Shown piece by piece: positions 47,501 through 55,377 of a stretch of 64,000 nt of DNA. Location: positions 1-64,000 of the forward strand of contig JAJYMY010000002.1 of assembly GCA_021786575.1 (NCBI GenBank), written 5' to 3'. The notes beneath the pieces were generated by a model. It ran no database searches. It was not told the DNA's origin and saw nothing but the letters and a program-made list of their open reading frames with translations. A program made the position numbers and the translations under genes. Positions within the stretch are counted from its first letter, which is position 1, and every line of letters begins with the position of its first letter. This DNA is from an archaeon (GTDB lineage: Archaea; Thermoproteota; Nitrososphaeria; Nitrososphaerales; Gagatemarchaeaceae).

Positions 47501-49813
47501 TCACTCACACTTCGAGTAACCGCACGAGTTGCAGTGGTAGCAGCCGTTCTCGAACACGAGGGTGTTCTCGTGACAGTCGGGACAGGTACCTTTTCCTCCT
47601 CTAGATGTCGACTTCCCCTTTGCTTCATTCACGAAGCCTGACTCCTTGATTACATGGTTGAGAGTAAGGAGTTCCAAGGCTTTCGCGATGGCGTCCGGGA
47701 TGGACTGGAGTTGGGTCCCCTCATCCCAGGAGACGTACTTCCCCTTTATTCCCTTAAGGGTGGATATGACGCTCTTGATGTCTCCTCCGTGCTGGAGGTA
47801 CAGGCTGATTAGTCTGCCAAGCGCGGCTGCGTCAGCGTTCTCATCGGCCCCCGACTTGCCAAGGGTAACGAAGACCTCCTTAATCTCCCCTCCAATCAGG
47901 TTCGCAGTGAGGTAGATGCTCCCCTGGGGGAGTTTGAGCTTGAGTGTCCTTCCTTCCATCACCTTGGGTCGCTCGAAGCTTGCCGCTGGCTTGGCCTCAG
48001 TCTTCTTGGAAACCTTCTCCGTCTCAAGGATCCCCTCTCTGCTTCCCTCCCTGTAGACTGTTATCCCCTTGCACCCCATCCGCCAAGCGAGGAGGTAGAT
48101 TTTCTCGACCTCCTCCGGCGTTATGTCCTCCGGGAGGTTCACGGTGCTTGAGATGGCGGTGTCGATGTGCTTCTGGATGGTCGCCTGCATCTTTACCCTC
48201 TTCTCTGGTTTGATTTGGTGCGCGGTGACGAAGTAGTTGGGGAGTTGGCCTTCGTCTCTCGCCCCCGTTGCCGCCATGTATTCATTCACAAGCGGATGGA
48301 AGACCTTAAACTCGCCTTCGCTCAGCGACTTGCTCCTGCGCGTATAGAAGAGGGCGAAGACTGGTTCGACGCCACTGCTGGTCCCCGCGAGGATTGACCC
48401 TGACCCAACTGGAGGGATAGTGGTGACCGCGGCGTTCCTGATCCCCTGGGTCATGATTTTCTCCTTCACCTTCTCGTCCAGCCTCGAGATGAACGGTTGT
48501 GCGATGTGCTTGGTCGCATCGAACGCCGGGAAGCTTCCTTTCTCTTTCGCCAAATCGGTGGAGTAATCGTAGAAGACATTCTTGATTCTCTCAAAGAGGT
48601 GGTCTACGAACTCGATGGTCGAGTCGTCGTCATACTTCAGGCCTAGCTTGATGAGCATATCTCCCAGACCCGTAATCCCCACTCCTATCCTCCTGCTGTG
48701 GAGTGACGCCTCCTTCTGCTGCAAGAGTGGGTGCCGCTCGGCATTGTAGTCCAAAACGTTGTCTAGGAACCTGACGCCATACTGGGCGGCCCTCGTGAGC
48801 GAGTCCCAGTCAATGCTCGCCCTTTCTGTGAATGGGTCTTTCACGAACGCGCTCAGGTTCACCGAGCCGAGACAGCAACATCCGTAGCTCTCAAGTGTCT
48901 GTTCGCTGCAAGGGTTGACCCCTTGCACCTCCATGCCGTTGTATTCGGTGGTGGATTCGCGTTTGATTGCGTCCCAGAAGAGCACTCCTGGTTCTGCTGA
49001 CTGCCAAGCTCCCTTTATCAGCGACTTCCACACCTCCCTCGCCCTCACGGTGCGGTTCACTTCCACCTTCTCGTTCTTGAAGTGGAGCAGGAAGTCTCCG
49101 TCTGTCTCCACTGCTCTCATGAAGTCGTCTGTAATCTTCACCGAGATGTTAGCATAGTTGACCCTCTTCAGATCCCGTTTCACATTGATGAAGTCGATTA
49201 CGTCCGGATGGTCCACTCCTATGGTAATCATAAGGGCGCCGCGCCTTCCCGCCTGGCCGATTGTCCCTGTCGTCGTTGAAAGTAGTTCCATGAAAGACAC
49301 CGAACCGGAACTGTAAATGGCGGAGTTGTTGACCGGTGCCCCTCTTGGTCTTAGGACGGAGATATCAGTTCCAACCCCCCCACCAAAGCTGTATGTCCTA
49401 GCGGCCTCCTTGCACCAGTCGAATATCGCTTCAATCGAATCCTCTTTGATTTTGAAGAAGTAGCAGTTCAGGAGCGTCGACTTCCTTGTCTGCCCTGCGC
49501 CGAACAGAATCCTCCCTCCGGGGACGAAGCGGTAGTTCTCAAGGAGCCAGTAGAACCTGTTGGCCCACTCTTTCTTGTCTTCGTCCTTCTCGGGCGAAGC
49601 GAGCTCCTTCGCGACTCTGCGCCACATGTCCGCCGGGACCTTCTCAACCTGCTTGCCTGATGCGTCCCTCAATGCGTACTTCTCGTAGAAGACCCTGGCG
49701 CGCAGCTCGTCCCCTCCGAACGCCGCCAAAGTCTCCGCGGGGAGCCTGACCTCCGCCTTCATTTCCTCTCCTACATCCGGAGAGTCTCGTGGTTGTTCAA
49801 CTATCGACGTCAT
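47501..49813 (-). CDS. nrdJ: Class II (adenosylcobalamin-dependent) ribonucleotide reductase
   Basis: Makes deoxyribonucleotides using a B12-derived radical. 770 aa: STLLNCYFFKI, FGGGVGTDISVLRPRGAPV, the active-site loop NPCSEQTLESYGCCCLGSVNL, ATVTTIPPVGSGSILAGTSSGVEP region, a C-terminal TSCPD-like domain (LPQGSIYLTANLIGGEIKEVF) and a final zinc ribbon CPDCHENTLV ... CNSCGYSKC that relays electrons. No nrdAB or nrdDG is in the window. ATG at 49813 with a TATA element at 49842-49850. Confidence 0.95.
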   Translation of the reverse strand: MTSIVEQPRDSPDVGEEMKAEVRLPAETLAAFGGDELRARVFYEKYALRDASGKQVEKVPADMWRRVAKELASPEKDEDKKEWANRFYWLLENYRFVPGGRILFGAGQTRKSTLLNCYFFKIKEDSIEAIFDWCKEAARTYSFGGGVGTDISVLRPRGAPVNNSAIYSSGSVSFMELLSTTTGTIGQAGRRGALMITIGVDHPDVIDFINVKRDLKRVNYANISVKITDDFMRAVETDGDFLLHFKNEKVEVNRTVRAREVWKSLIKGAWQSAEPGVLFWDAIKRESTTEYNGMEVQGVNPCSEQTLESYGCCCLGSVNLSAFVKDPFTERASIDWDSLTRAAQYGVRFLDNVLDYNAERHPLLQQKEASLHSRRIGVGITGLGDMLIKLGLKYDDDSTIEFVDHLFERIKNVFYDYSTDLAKEKGSFPAFDATKHIAQPFISRLDEKVKEKIMTQGIRNAAVTTIPPVGSGSILAGTSSGVEPVFALFYTRRSKSLSEGEFKVFHPLVNEYMAATGARDEGQLPNYFVTAHQIKPEKRVKMQATIQKHIDTAISSTVNLPEDITPEEVEKIYLLAWRMGCKGITVYREGSREGILETEKVSKKTEAKPAASFERPKVMEGRTLKLKLPQGSIYLTANLIGGEIKEVFVTLGKSGADENADAAALGRLISLYLQHGGDIKSVISTLKGIKGKYVSWDEGTQLQSIPDAIAKALELLTLNHVIKESGFVNEAKGKSTSRGGKGTCPDCHENTLVFENGCYHCNSCGYSKCE

Positions 49814-49831: not shown

Positions 49832-49879
49832 GTGGTTTGAGATATATAATTCCGACTCGGCTTATCGCGAGTTAACCAC
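49832..49879. promoter_or_regulatory. TATA box and possible operator of nrdJ
   Basis: On the reverse strand AATTATATATC (49841-49851) is the TATA box, 29-37 nt before the nrdJ ATG. It is flanked by an inverted repeat GTGGTT (49832-49837) and AACCAC (49874-49879), placed where a repressor could block TBP or polymerase. The repeat is short and may be chance. Confidence 0.4.
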
Positions 49880-49965
49880 CAAGGAGGGCGCTAACTCCTC
49901 TTTCTACGACATGAAACGTTCGGCTGTGAACTGATGTTGACAAAAAAGAAGGACGAGTTGATTAA

Positions 49966-52053
49966 CTAGCCTGCGGTCGAGTATTGTGTCATCGCGACGG
50001 ATTTGCATCTAGGGCACCTGCTCACGTTCTGTGGCAGCTTCGCGCCACAGTTTCTGCAAACCGATATAGTCCTGTCCACCTTGAAGTAGGATAGCTTGGG
50101 CGTCGCGTTAAGGACGAGGTTGTAAATCCCCCTTACCTCATCCGAAGACCCATCCAGCGTGACTGAGATTCCACCACGCAGCCCAGCGGAGAGCTTCGTC
50201 ATATAGTCCATCTTTTCTGGGTTCTCAAGGTCGGCGAGGAGGAGTCTGGGTGCCTGAGTGTATGCTCCTCTCATGAGAGGCTGGAGATTAGCCTTCCCAT
50301 ACTTCTCAGCGTCGAGGCTCGTGAGCCTAAGCGCACCGTCCAAGTCCAACATCGCCACGCCGAGTCTGTCAATCTTGGTCGACTTGTCGTCTGCTACTTG
50401 GGTGGCTGTCCCAATTATCTTGTCTGCGAGCTCGTACCGCGAGGACGTCGTTGGGTCTCGTATCAAACTGGCAAGGGTCTCTTCGAGCCCGACAAGGTTC
50501 ATGATGAGCGGCATCGTGTCAGAGGTCACTGCGTCCGAACCGGAAGCGAGAGAGGGGAGGAGTCCCCTCTTCAAAGCTCTCTCAATCAGCCTTCTTCGCG
50601 TAGAGAGGGCGTCCGCAGCCACCCCGATGAGAAGGGCCAGTTTGGCCCTGAAGTAGGTCTCGTCTTGGTTGGAGTCGTAGGCGAGCCTGGGGAGGTTGAG
50701 GCTGAGCCCGTGGAGAACGCTTACGTTGTCCGCCTGTGACTCCTGAGATAGCACATTCGCATTCAGCCCGAGGAAGCTCCTCCGCTGGTCAGAGGAGAAG
50801 AACGCTATCCTCCCACCATTGAAGATAATCGAGGCTGCGTCTTTCAACGTTTTCGTGTCATCCACTCTGCTGGGCTTCGCTAAGAGAATCCTGATGTCTG
50901 GCCTCGGGGTCTCTTCGACGTAGCTCCTGTAGGCGCCGAGGGCTGCGTCCAAGGTCTTGTCTAGGACTTCTCGGTCGATGTCGTCGTGCTTGTATGGGTT
51001 GAGGTCAATTCCAATGGCCGGACCGGATGTCCCAGCAATGGGCGACCCGATCGTCTCGTAGAACCTTAGGAAGAGCGACTCGAGTTCCCTCTTCCCCTTA
51101 GATTTGCAATAGGGACCAACATACTGGAGGAAGTTTCGAAAAGTTACTTCGTCAGAGGTTTCCCTTGTAAGCATGGAAGCCATGTTGAGCATGATACTGA
51201 GCGCCCTTTCGGCATTCTCGGGACTCGGTATCATTGATGTGTTGAGTATTCTCCCTCTAGGGTTGAGCCCTGCGGACCTGATGGACAGAAGGTCGACGAA
51301 AACAGCGTCAGGTGAGAGCCCCCAGGAACCTGCGTTCGTTATATGGATGTCTCCGGAGAGGTGGGCATCAGCCACGTCTCTCGGAAGTTGTTCCAGAAGG
51401 AGATATTCAGAGAAAACCTGCTTCCCAGTCTGGTGAATCAACGACTCAACGTTCACACCGTCGTCTCCTGCCTTTCCTAACAGTTGGGTGACGTCATAGA
51501 TTGGCATCCCAAGCCTGGTGAGCTTGTGTCTATACTCTTCCATGCTGTGTTCGACGAGGAGTGCGTTGACTATCTCGCGTATGAGTGGGGCGGTCAGATA
51601 TTGGGTCTGGAACTTGTATAGTCTGGACTCGGTCTCGCTAGTAATCTTCTGGGCAAGCTCCACTGGCATCCCCGCCTCCTTCACAAGCGACTGGAGTATC
51701 TTGTTGGCATTGAATTCTTCCATCGTCTGATGAGAAGTTCGGACGTAGAGTTTGCCGCTCTCTACGAGAGACTGCTCCTCAATCTGCCTGGTGAGGTTAA
51801 GCACGAGCCTCCCAAGGTTGGTTACTGTATACTTCCTCTCTTGCCTGTTGAGCTGGATGAGGAGCTGCTTCACGAGCTTTCGCAGGTGATAGGCAAACTT
51901 ACCAGATTCCTTCTTCGACTTGAACCCGGCCAGGGTCTTGAGAGCACTGTAAGTCAGGGGCCCTTTGATATTCAGTATCCTCAGAATCTCGAGCCTCTGC
52001 GGAGACGCAATCACACTATAAATCGTCTTGACCCTACGAGGAGCGGCCTGCAA
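49966..52053 (-). CDS. Winged-helix / ATP-cone / inactive NrdD-like fusion
   Basis: 695 aa from a TTG at 52053 (TATA GTTAAATAC at 52078-52086). Residues 8-90 form an ArsR-like winged helix (IYSVIASPQRLEILRIL, GPLTYSALKTL). Residues 101-190 are an ATP-cone (TMEEFNANKILQSLV, AQKITSETE). From about 200 the chain follows anaerobic ribonucleotide reductase: AHLSGDIHITNAG, LSLNLPRLAYDS, RRRLIERALKRGLLPSL. It ends in a CxxC-CxxC ribbon (CRNCG, CPRC) but lacks the glycyl-radical loop and has only one other Cys (C316), so it cannot be a reductase. Next to nrdJ; a nucleotide-sensing transcription regulator is inferred. Confidence 0.85.
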   Translation of the reverse strand: MQAAPRRVKTIYSVIASPQRLEILRILNIKGPLTYSALKTLAGFKSKKESGKFAYHLRKLVKQLLIQLNRQERKYTVTNLGRLVLNLTRQIEEQSLVESGKLYVRTSHQTMEEFNANKILQSLVKEAGMPVELAQKITSETESRLYKFQTQYLTAPLIREIVNALLVEHSMEEYRHKLTRLGMPIYDVTQLLGKAGDDGVNVESLIHQTGKQVFSEYLLLEQLPRDVADAHLSGDIHITNAGSWGLSPDAVFVDLLSIRSAGLNPRGRILNTSMIPSPENAERALSIMLNMASMLTRETSDEVTFRNFLQYVGPYCKSKGKRELESLFLRFYETIGSPIAGTSGPAIGIDLNPYKHDDIDREVLDKTLDAALGAYRSYVEETPRPDIRILLAKPSRVDDTKTLKDAASIIFNGGRIAFFSSDQRRSFLGLNANVLSQESQADNVSVLHGLSLNLPRLAYDSNQDETYFRAKLALLIGVAADALSTRRRLIERALKRGLLPSLASGSDAVTSDTMPLIMNLVGLEETLASLIRDPTTSSRYELADKIIGTATQVADDKSTKIDRLGVAMLDLDGALRLTSLDAEKYGKANLQPLMRGAYTQAPRLLLADLENPEKMDYMTKLSAGLRGGISVTLDGSSDEVRGIYNLVLNATPKLSYFKVDRTISVCRNCGAKLPQNVSRCPRCKSVAMTQYSTAG

Positions 52054-52119
52054 TCCGACAGCACGTCGAGGTCAAAAGTATTTAACGCTATGATAACTCG
52101 ATTTCATTCGAATTTTGGA

Positions 52120-52227
52120 TGGGGTCGCCCGGATTTGAACCGGGGATCTCAAGCGGACTCAGCCCTTCAGCCATGACTGATGGAGCACCCAAGGCTTGAA
52201 GCCTGGACCAGACTAGCCGACGACCCC
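52120..52227 (-). tRNA. tRNA-Pro (TGG) with one intron
   Basis: Acceptor GGGGTCG/CGACCCC with A73; D arm GGCT-loop-GGCT with A14, G18G19 and A21; anticodon stem CAAGC/GCTTG; loop CTTGGG with anticodon TGG; T arm CCCGG TTCAAAT CCGGG. A 32-nt intron (about 52156-52187) sits after position 37, the canonical archaeal site. The mature tRNA is 76 nt. TATA-like CATAACTATC near 52250-52260. Confidence 0.92.
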
Positions 52228-52255
52228 GCTGTCCCTCGGTCGAATCTTGAGATAG

Positions 52256-53018: not shown

Positions 53019-53918
53019 TTATGATTGCGCGTAAGCCGCCCCAGAGATGGCATAGCCGCCAATCCTGCTCCTTCCCATCCTGGTGTAGACTGGGAGGGCC
53101 GCCAGGTAGAATCCAAGAAAGAGTGCGTAGCCTATCCAGTTGTGAACCCCCCAGAACGCTGATGCTCCGTCAACGTATCCTACCCACATAAGAAGCAGTA
53201 TTCTGATGGAGTTGAGTAGTGTAAGGATGGCTATTCCGGAGGCTGCCAGTATGGCCGTAGACCGTAAATCCTTCTTCAGGTCCATGTGCATTAGTGCGAG
53301 GAGACCGACGAAGGTGGTTATCGAGATGATGCTCGAGCAGCCTGGAGCAACGTAGCCGGCTATGACGTCTCCGGTCCTTGAAAACAACTGGAACTGGGTT
53401 CCTTGCCAAGCCACTGGCATCCCAACCAGGCTGACGAACCTCGAGGCGAGGACCGCCGATGCGTAGGCCAAGGGCTCACCGAAGGCCCACTGGAGTGCAA
53501 ATGGGGCCCCTATACCAACTGCGTATATGGCGGCGTAAGGGAGCAGAATCCTCTTCGTCTGTGGGTTGACTACCAGAGATGCAGCGTAGAATGTCAGAAC
53601 AACCGAGATGCCGGCCGTTTCGACGGCCTTGCTAGTCAGGGACTCAATCAGCCATAGCGATGTCAGGACCCCCACTCCGATGACTCGTGTCGTGAGATGT
53701 GTGGTGACCCCCCCTTCGACCGCAAGCACGCCGTGGAACTCGTTCCACCTCATTGCGAAAATGAGGGTTAGCAGCGCAGCGAAGGGGATCGCTGGAAATA
53801 CGCTGCCAAATGTGTCTCCAAGCGACTGATTCAGAAGAGCGAGAAAGTTTGGTGCGGTTGTCAGGCAGAGGGCAGATCCTGTCACAATCCAGACGAGCAG
53901 CCTGACTGCGACCTTCAA
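53019..53918 (-). CDS. Archaeosortase/exosortase family transpeptidase
   Basis: 299 aa from a TTG at 53918 (starts earlier would overlap the upstream gene). Eight or so transmembrane helices carry the archaeosortase catalytic set: Cys in APGCSSI, Arg in LLNSIRIL and His in WGVHNWIGY. Such enzymes cleave a C-terminal sorting signal and probably attach the protein to a lipid. It lies 13 nt downstream of a gene whose product carries a PEFPF-type signal, so the two form a dedicated enzyme-substrate pair. Confidence 0.9.
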   Translation of the reverse strand: MKVAVRLLVWIVTGSALCLTTAPNFLALLNQSLGDTFGSVFPAIPFAALLTLIFAMRWNEFHGVLAVEGGVTTHLTTRVIGVGVLTSLWLIESLTSKAVETAGISVVLTFYAASLVVNPQTKRILLPYAAIYAVGIGAPFALQWAFGEPLAYASAVLASRFVSLVGMPVAWQGTQFQLFSRTGDVIAGYVAPGCSSIISITTFVGLLALMHMDLKKDLRSTAILAASGIAILTLLNSIRILLLMWVGYVDGASAFWGVHNWIGYALFLGFYLAALPVYTRMGRSRIGGYAISGAAYAQS

Positions 53919-53931
53919 CGGTCCGCCACTT

Positions 53932-54594
53932 TCACGTGGTGACAGCGGGCAAGGTCCGGGCGGATGCCTTCTTTGCAATCAGATATGCCGATGCTATCAC
54001 AAAGACGAAAAAAGCTGCCAGAGCCGCTTGGAACGGGAATTCAGGTATCCCTCCCCCTCCTTTGGTGGAGCTGGTGCTGGAAGCCGAGATGGCAGTGCTG
54101 GAAGAGGTCGAGAAGGTAGTCGATGTGCTCGAAGTCGATGCGCTCGAAGTGCTCTGGGCGGTCGAGAAGGTAGTCGATGCGCTCGAAGTGCTGGTCGTGA
54201 CTGTGGTTGGCGCATATTGGAATGTGGTTCCAGCATAGATTTGCGGAGGGTATGCTCCCCAAGTCGCGTTCACCTCATATGTACCGGAGGTCCAACCCGA
54301 GGTCCCCCCGGCGACGAATGTGTAGTTGTAGAGGCCGGTGGAAGCCCCGACCGGAGCCTCACCCGGTGCAACGATAGATCCGTGCGGGTTGATGATCTCC
54401 AAGAACACAGCGGTGTTCGGGCCGGGGGGCGGCGACACCTTCCCCGTGACATGAATTGCCTGCCCGTTCACATACGAAGGCTTGTCAGTCGAGATGGTCA
54501 GAGTAAAGGAAGTCTGGGCCACCGCCCAAGGGGCGACTAGGATCAGCGCCAAAAGGGCCAGCGAGATGGAGGCAGCACGGCTCCTGTAGGGCAC
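53932..54594 (-). CDS. Secreted protein with C-terminal PEF-type sorting signal
   Basis: 220 aa. Signal peptide (about 1-26, ending WAVAQ), an Ig-like domain with ISTDKPSYVNGQAIHVTGKV (27-125), a Ser/Thr-rich stalk (about 131-180) likely to be O-glycosylated, then GIPEFPF, one transmembrane helix and a basic KKASAR end. This tripartite tail is the recognition signal of archaeosortases. GTG start with TATA GATTATATACG at 54617-54627. Substrate of the next gene by inference. Confidence 0.9.
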   Translation of the reverse strand: MPYRSRAASISLALLALILVAPWAVAQTSFTLTISTDKPSYVNGQAIHVTGKVSPPPGPNTAVFLEIINPHGSIVAPGEAPVGASTGLYNYTFVAGGTSGWTSGTYEVNATWGAYPPQIYAGTTFQYAPTTVTTSTSSASTTFSTAQSTSSASTSSTSTTFSTSSSTAISASSTSSTKGGGGIPEFPFQAALAAFFVFVIASAYLIAKKASARTLPAVTT

Positions 54595-55134: not shown

Positions 55135-55377
55135 GCACCTGCACGCTTAAAGTCGTGTAAAAAACGCTTGGCTAGCCAGGAAACGTTAATCTACCACGGA
55201 GAGACCCCTTGTTTCAGCCGGCCATAGCGTGCGGGTCCGACCCAGACTCGTTCCGAACCTGGCAGTCAAACCGCGCGTCGCCCCGGTGCTACTGACTTCC
55301 GAGAGGAGTCGGGAAGCCGAGGTGCCGGCGCCTATCTTCCAAAAACTACCGTTTTCACTGGAGATATCCTCCAGAAC

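Follow-up and report, generated by a model that had tools for sequence, protein, structure and literature searches.

The closest described counterpart of the protein reported here is NrdR, a regulator of about 150 amino acids in which an N-terminal zinc ribbon is followed by an ATP-cone (TIGR00244). Regulators derived from enzymes are also known, for example the ROK repressors related to sugar kinases, which join an enzyme fold to a DNA-binding domain, have lost catalysis, and possibly reuse the old ligand pocket, as may be the case here. We know of no enzyme-derived regulator built on a ribonucleotide reductase (RNR), and the open-access papers searched describe no protein of this kind. To our knowledge, the control of dNTP supply in archaea without NrdR is likewise undescribed, and no account of it was found in those papers; a protein, a likely operator, and a testable mechanism can now be named.

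The window, a 64,000-nucleotide stretch of archaeal DNA, contains a gene 152 nt upstream of nrdJ that encodes a fusion protein with an NrdD-like barrel. The protein is probably an autoregulated transcription regulator of nrdJ, made from a duplicated NrdD, that would sense ATP or dATP and act through the inverted repeat GTCAA-N6-TTNAC. Like NrdR, it would control an RNR gene and its own gene according to the dATP/ATP balance, through an ATP-cone and specific promoter boxes, but its DNA-binding part is a winged helix rather than a zinc ribbon and it contains a whole NrdD-fold barrel, making it about 4.5 times longer. With the class III NrdD enzymes that have an ATP-cone (PDB IDs 9d3x, 9dca, and 8p28) it shares the cone, the barrel, and the C-terminal zinc ribbon, and it is homologous to them by sequence and fold; it differs in its extra N-terminal winged helix, its separate clade, the lack of NrdG, and the loss of both catalytic cysteines, the glycyl loop, and the NxN, HxHD, and PAE motifs. 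The N-terminal domain is of the type found in ArsR-like DUF7347/HTH_20 regulators, and DNA binding is predicted, but here an ATP-cone and a reductase fold are attached to this domain, and the gene is linked to one for an RNR. A nucleotide-responsive RNR regulator is a known kind of protein; the architecture is new. The features of the locus are as follows.

47501..49813, minus strand: nrdJ, class II (adenosylcobalamin) RNR, 770 amino acids (NrdJ_Z, E 8e-167)
49842..49849, minus strand: probable nrdJ TATA box TTATATAT, 29-36 nt before the start codon
49859..49876, minus strand: second element GTTAACTCGCGATAAGCC, containing a single GTYAA half-site and located shortly before the nrdJ TATA box; recognized by conservation only
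49926..49941, minus strand: putative operator GTCAACATCAGTTCAC upstream of nrdJ, repeat GTCAA-N6-TTNAC
49966..52053, minus strand: gene of the putative regulator, 695 amino acids, TTG start; winged helix, ATP-cone, NrdD-like barrel, zinc ribbon
50005..50058, minus strand: C-terminal zinc ribbon (C666/C669/C680/C683); the chain ends before the glycyl-radical loop
50074..51477, minus strand: NrdD-like barrel, about residues 193-660, without C79, C290, and the HxHD, NxN, and PAE motifs
51532..51747, minus strand: ATP-cone (Pfam), residues 103-174, hairpin VRTS instead of VxKRDG
51799..52023, minus strand: winged helix (Pfam DUF7347/HTH_20), residues 11-85, recognition region GFKSKKESGKFAYHLRKL
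52071..52086, minus strand: putative operator GTTAAATACTTTTGAC in the gene's own promoter, covering the TATA-like TTAAATAC

Architecture, conservation, and likely ligand

The first-pass annotation had described an ArsR-like winged helix, an ATP-cone, an NrdD-like barrel, and a zinc ribbon joined in one protein, and this arrangement was confirmed by Pfam, AlphaFold2, and Foldseek. The winged helix scored above the Pfam cut-off for DUF7347 (38.4 bits versus 27.6, E 1.5e-9) and below that for HTH_20 (24.2 bits versus 27), the ATP-cone was over its cut-off (E 8.5e-7), and the barrel matched NRDD (E 5.8e-27). When the AlphaFold2 model (mean pLDDT 86.5, pTM 0.73) was searched with Foldseek, class III RNRs came first, with 9d3x among the best PDB matches (E 2.6e-22) and further matches to 4coj (TM 0.66) and 1h79 (TM 0.70 by target length), indicating that the protein has both the fold of NrdD and the sequence homology by which class III RNRs are recognized. 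As the annotation had also noted, C316 is the only cysteine outside the ribbon (the others being C666, C669, C680, and C683) and nrdJ follows the gene on the same strand, which is the minus strand, a detail the annotation had not given. The TTG start is supported by relatives that have ATG at the same place (for example, loci L028, L030, and L084).

The named relatives come from Nitrososphaerales/Thaumarchaeota MAGs. The 61 relatives include 32 good genomes, and 31 of these have a match at an E value of 0.001 or better, so that the protein is almost universal in the order, whose members include ammonia-oxidizing archaea; in a draw from the phylum, 95 of 135 good genomes had a match at the same threshold, a figure in which genuine NrdD and some weak matches are counted. 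A tree of 82 sequences placed the 69 fusion proteins in a single clade (SH-aLRT 100), separate from the 13 genuine NrdD; only this main split was used, because the tree came from a short search and has several long branches. Two members from family f45 (L122 and L123, in genomes G150 and G168) are very divergent, with 570-600 residues and a branch length above 3. They comprise a winged helix and what is left of the other parts, and may have decayed further or serve another purpose. Searches of viral contigs yielded no more than two distant matches, both at about 30% identity and neither covering the winged helix.

The gene is under strong purifying selection, with the winged helix and the cone almost frozen while the barrel drifts. 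Against 22 relatives, median identity was 100% for the winged helix, 100% for the cone, and 87% for the barrel, and the contrast between domains is clear from these values alone. Median dN/dS was 0.003, 0.003, and 0.04, respectively, values that are rough because synonymous sites are near saturation (median dS 1.7-2.0). The recognition region GFKSKKESGKFAYHLRKL of the winged helix is nearly invariant across the order, and the zinc cysteines are nearly invariant too.

The centres of the two half-sites of the inverted repeat are separated by 11 bp, a spacing that would suit a dimer of winged helices. In StNrdD the cone domains are dimerized by dATP and separated by ATP (PMC12662201), the cones of PcNrdD likewise pair with dATP (PMC11226230), and the dATP/ATP-loaded form of NrdR is a DNA-binding tetramer (PMC9110341). 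Because the winged helix is joined to the cone, and because of the half-site spacing and these precedents, we propose by analogy that DNA binding is favored by dATP. With dATP, the two cones of a dimer would pair up, and with ATP they would separate, as in class III RNR; since a winged helix is joined to each cone, pairing would position both winged helices on the repeat with a spacing of one helical turn, and at high dATP the protein's own promoter and nrdJ would be shut. We infer that the ligand is ATP or dATP. The Lys-Arg pair of the cone hairpin, which contacts the phosphates in other cones (K9/R10 in E. coli and K19/R20 in StNrdD; PMC12662201), reads Thr-Ser in the fusion protein, and this could mean altered nucleotide binding.

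The changed hairpin is also the first of several features in keeping with a different signal, where the protein would regulate nrdJ and itself in response to a specificity-site dNTP, a pyrimidine nucleotide, zinc or redox state via the ribbon, or contact with NrdJ, and the cone would only dimerize. The specificity-effector lysine is retained in 30 of the 69 fusions (the window protein has Glu there), many relatives have pyrB or pyrI as a neighbor, and the near invariance of the zinc cysteines would fit as well. We nevertheless consider such a signal unlikely, as the cone is among the most conserved parts of the protein and above the Pfam cut-off, and a hairpin of the VRTS type also occurs in some genuine, catalytically intact archaeal NrdDs of the phylum. 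A more far-reaching version of the (d)ATP-sensing regulator is possible, although we hold it only tentatively. The protein would then be the first transcription factor made from a whole ribonucleotide reductase, in which the pairing of cones by dATP/ATP, possibly together with a specificity-site dNTP at the dimer interface, decides on the docking of two winged helices at the nrdJ operator, so that both the amount and the balance of dNTPs are read; it would be an ancient archaeal counterpart of NrdR, kept with the RNR gene through several replacements.

Linkage to ribonucleotide reductase genes

The association with RNR genes was found throughout the order. At all loci where both genes could be read, they share a strand and the gene of the putative regulator is the upstream one, in most cases separated from nrdJ by 39-530 nt; in this reading, L015 and L042 overlap through an extended ORF call, and the nrdJ frame of L050 is broken. 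Four genomes (G019, G210, G215, and G248) have neither gene, the pattern that would result if the assemblies had missed the linked pair. The nrdJ genes themselves are of at least three architectures with 27-40% identity between types, namely without an ATP-cone (as in the window), with an ATP-cone (L087, L094, L101, and L102), and with Ribonuc_red_2_N (L088 and L091). The retention of the linkage across replacements of nrdJ argues for a functional tie. A further nrdJ type, in L085, contains an intein, for which Pfam shows a LAGLIDADG domain. The nrdJ frames of L085, L046, and L053 are much longer than usual (1113-1503 amino acids), and inteins may be frequent in nrdJ of the order.

Such a tie could also be explained at the protein level, with the fusion protein acting as an allosteric subunit that lends its ATP-cone to a cone-less NrdJ and the winged helix being structural. 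The window NrdJ indeed has no ATP-cone of its own by Pfam, and the two genes are always adjacent. This arrangement is, however, improbable, given that many linked NrdJs have their own ATP-cone, that relatives of the fusion adjoin an NrdD that also has its own cone, that the winged helix is conserved as much as the cone, and that an inverted repeat is common to both promoters.

Outside the order, at least seven of the loci sampled have the fusion beside an nrdD or nrdJ gene (L107, L108/L109, L111, L112, L178, L181, and L183), and in many other loci its neighbor is pyrB or pyrI. The targets of the putative regulator would be its own gene and the neighboring RNR gene, which is nrdJ in the order and nrdD in several relatives. 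The gene order is regulator, nrdD, pyrB in L112 and L183 and regulator, glutaredoxin, nrdD, pyrB in L178, which suggests that the fusion arose through tandem duplication of nrdD and acquisition of a winged helix, pyrB being a bystander. The winged helix would have been added at the N terminus of the duplicated class III reductase, and its catalytic cysteines, together with the glycyl radical and most of its substrate site, would have disappeared. Pyrimidine genes were considered as targets and rejected, since loss of nrdD from between the regulator and pyrB is the simpler explanation in view of L112, L178, and L183. In two loci of family f14 (L195 and L197, genomes G246 and G218), nrdJ adjoins pyrB-like and pyrI-like genes, as judged from sequence starts only, an adjacency that echoes the pyrB neighbors of the regulator in other lineages.

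An inverted repeat in two promoters

When the gap sequences preceding nrdJ were aligned across the genus, GTCAA-N6-TTNAC proved to be conserved, with the second GTYAA element and then the TATA box downstream of it. Exact matches to this repeat occur in the window only at 49926-49941 and 52071-52086. The pattern was fixed on the genus alignment and evaluated elsewhere against dinucleotide shuffles; some sequences of other families had been inspected beforehand, which makes the comparison less than fully blind, although the excess over shuffles is large. Upstream of nrdJ, exact matches were found in 7 of 20 sequences from families other than f1 and f10 (0.06 in shuffles). Upstream of the putative regulator, they were found in 20 of 28 sequences of its own family (0.02 in shuffles) and 6 of 22 from other families (0.02). 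The repeat is degenerate in the nrdJ promoters of f10, with no exact match in 21 and at most one mismatch in 6 of 21 (1.55 expected). No repeat site is present in the 67-nt gap of L102/L103, and a different element precedes the regulator gene in L008, L014, L017, L019, L020, and L028.

Two genomes with nrdJ and without the regulator provide a comparison for loss, although one of them (G233) is 6% contaminated; in both G042 and G233 the best match before nrdJ has three mismatches, whereas G056, of the same genus as G042, has both the regulator and an exact site. That the protein regulates nrdJ, as the annotation had proposed, is well supported, though indirectly, by its linkage across the order to non-orthologous nrdJ genes, the shared repeat, the near-frozen winged helix, and the absence of the site in these two genomes. 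Binding of the protein to the repeat is itself predicted from sequence. It is very improbable that the repeat belongs to another, general regulator and that the fusion simply shares its regulation with nrdJ: genomes of the order do encode other proteins matching the winged helix, about 310-340 amino acids long, but among 30 distinct sites of the strict pattern GTYAA-N6-TTGAC in 13 genomes, 11 lie at the regulator/nrdJ locus (in 10 genomes), with no other recurring neighbor among the loci examined, and the two regulator-less genomes have no close match before nrdJ.

The TATA-like TTAAATAC lies 25-32 nt before the start codon of the putative regulator, and as the site covers it, autorepression is predicted. 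The nrdJ-side repeat lies about 75 nt upstream of the nrdJ TATA box, and for this reason repression at nrdJ is a guess, which we judge slightly likelier than activation. Outside the order, TGTCAA half-sites are enriched in three gaps between regulator and nrdD (6 versus 1.2 expected; 2 of 500 shuffles as high) and absent in four other gaps before nrdD or nrdJ, and a count of 4-mer dyads in these families gave no single dominant palindrome; the same operator is not claimed there.

Probable loss of reductase function

The annotation had called the protein a dead reductase, and this is strongly supported by the alignment. Cysteine is found in none of the 69 fusions at the position of T4 C79 (the second catalytic cysteine, on the first barrel strand) or of T4 C290 (the thiyl-radical cysteine, in the finger loop), compared with 14 of 14 genuine NrdD rows with a residue at the former position and 14 of 15 at the latter. 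The NxN substrate flap is likewise absent from all 69 and present in 14 of 15 NrdD rows. Glycine occupies the radical position in two fusions (L106 and L114, both without the cysteines) versus 14 of 15 NrdD rows, and no fusion combines an active-site cysteine with a glycyl motif. The chain of the window protein stops, as annotated, where aligned NrdDs have the glycyl loop SRVTGYY, and no RVxGY loop is present; several members outside the order have an eroded loop in which the glycine is replaced, such as SRVSAKHLP in L081/L178. The PAE loop, found in 15 of 15 NrdD rows, is lost in the window protein, and HxHD reads HITN. Loss of HxHD and PAE extends to the clade, whereas genuine NrdDs in the alignment retain both. 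The annotation's further proposal that the substrate site serves as a sensor is not supported, because the HxHD, NxN, and PAE motifs are eroded.

None of the 101 genomes of the order has NrdG over the TIGR02491 cut-off, with the home assembly being only 49% complete. The NrdD fold and the matches in Pfam and TIGRFAM would suggest a functional anaerobic ribonucleotide reductase, but this reading can be dismissed for a protein that lacks the thiyl cysteine, glycyl loop, NxN flap, and NrdG and scores 86 bits against a cut-off of 326 for the NrdD equivalog TIGR02487. Because it matches NrdD in general HMM libraries, the protein may nevertheless be read as an anaerobic reductase in organisms without one. 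Genuine NrdD was found in 1 of the 101 genomes (G050:C30, L124/L177), on a short contig, and represents contamination or recent transfer. NrdR was also rare, with no TIGR00244 match in the fusion protein or in genome G000 and a single genome of 61 over the cut-off (G220, possibly contamination).

Other features of the window lie upstream of the locus. A tRNA-like sequence at about 52121-52228 on the minus strand (GGGGTCG...GGTTCAAATCC...CGACCCC), whose anticodon arm contains an insert, lies directly upstream of the gene of the putative regulator and is present there in many relatives too; no tRNA was called at this position by ARAGORN or Rfam, and the sequence is possibly an intron-containing tRNA gene. 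A 5S rRNA gene is located at 55214-55333 on the plus strand (RF00001, E 3.8e-11), and the ORFs overlapping it are probably spurious. The adjacent minus-strand genes at 53019-53978 and 53932-54594 encode a membrane protein resembling exosortases/archaeosortases and its likely substrate, a protein that has a hydrophobic segment at the C terminus and a Ser/Thr stalk of low complexity.
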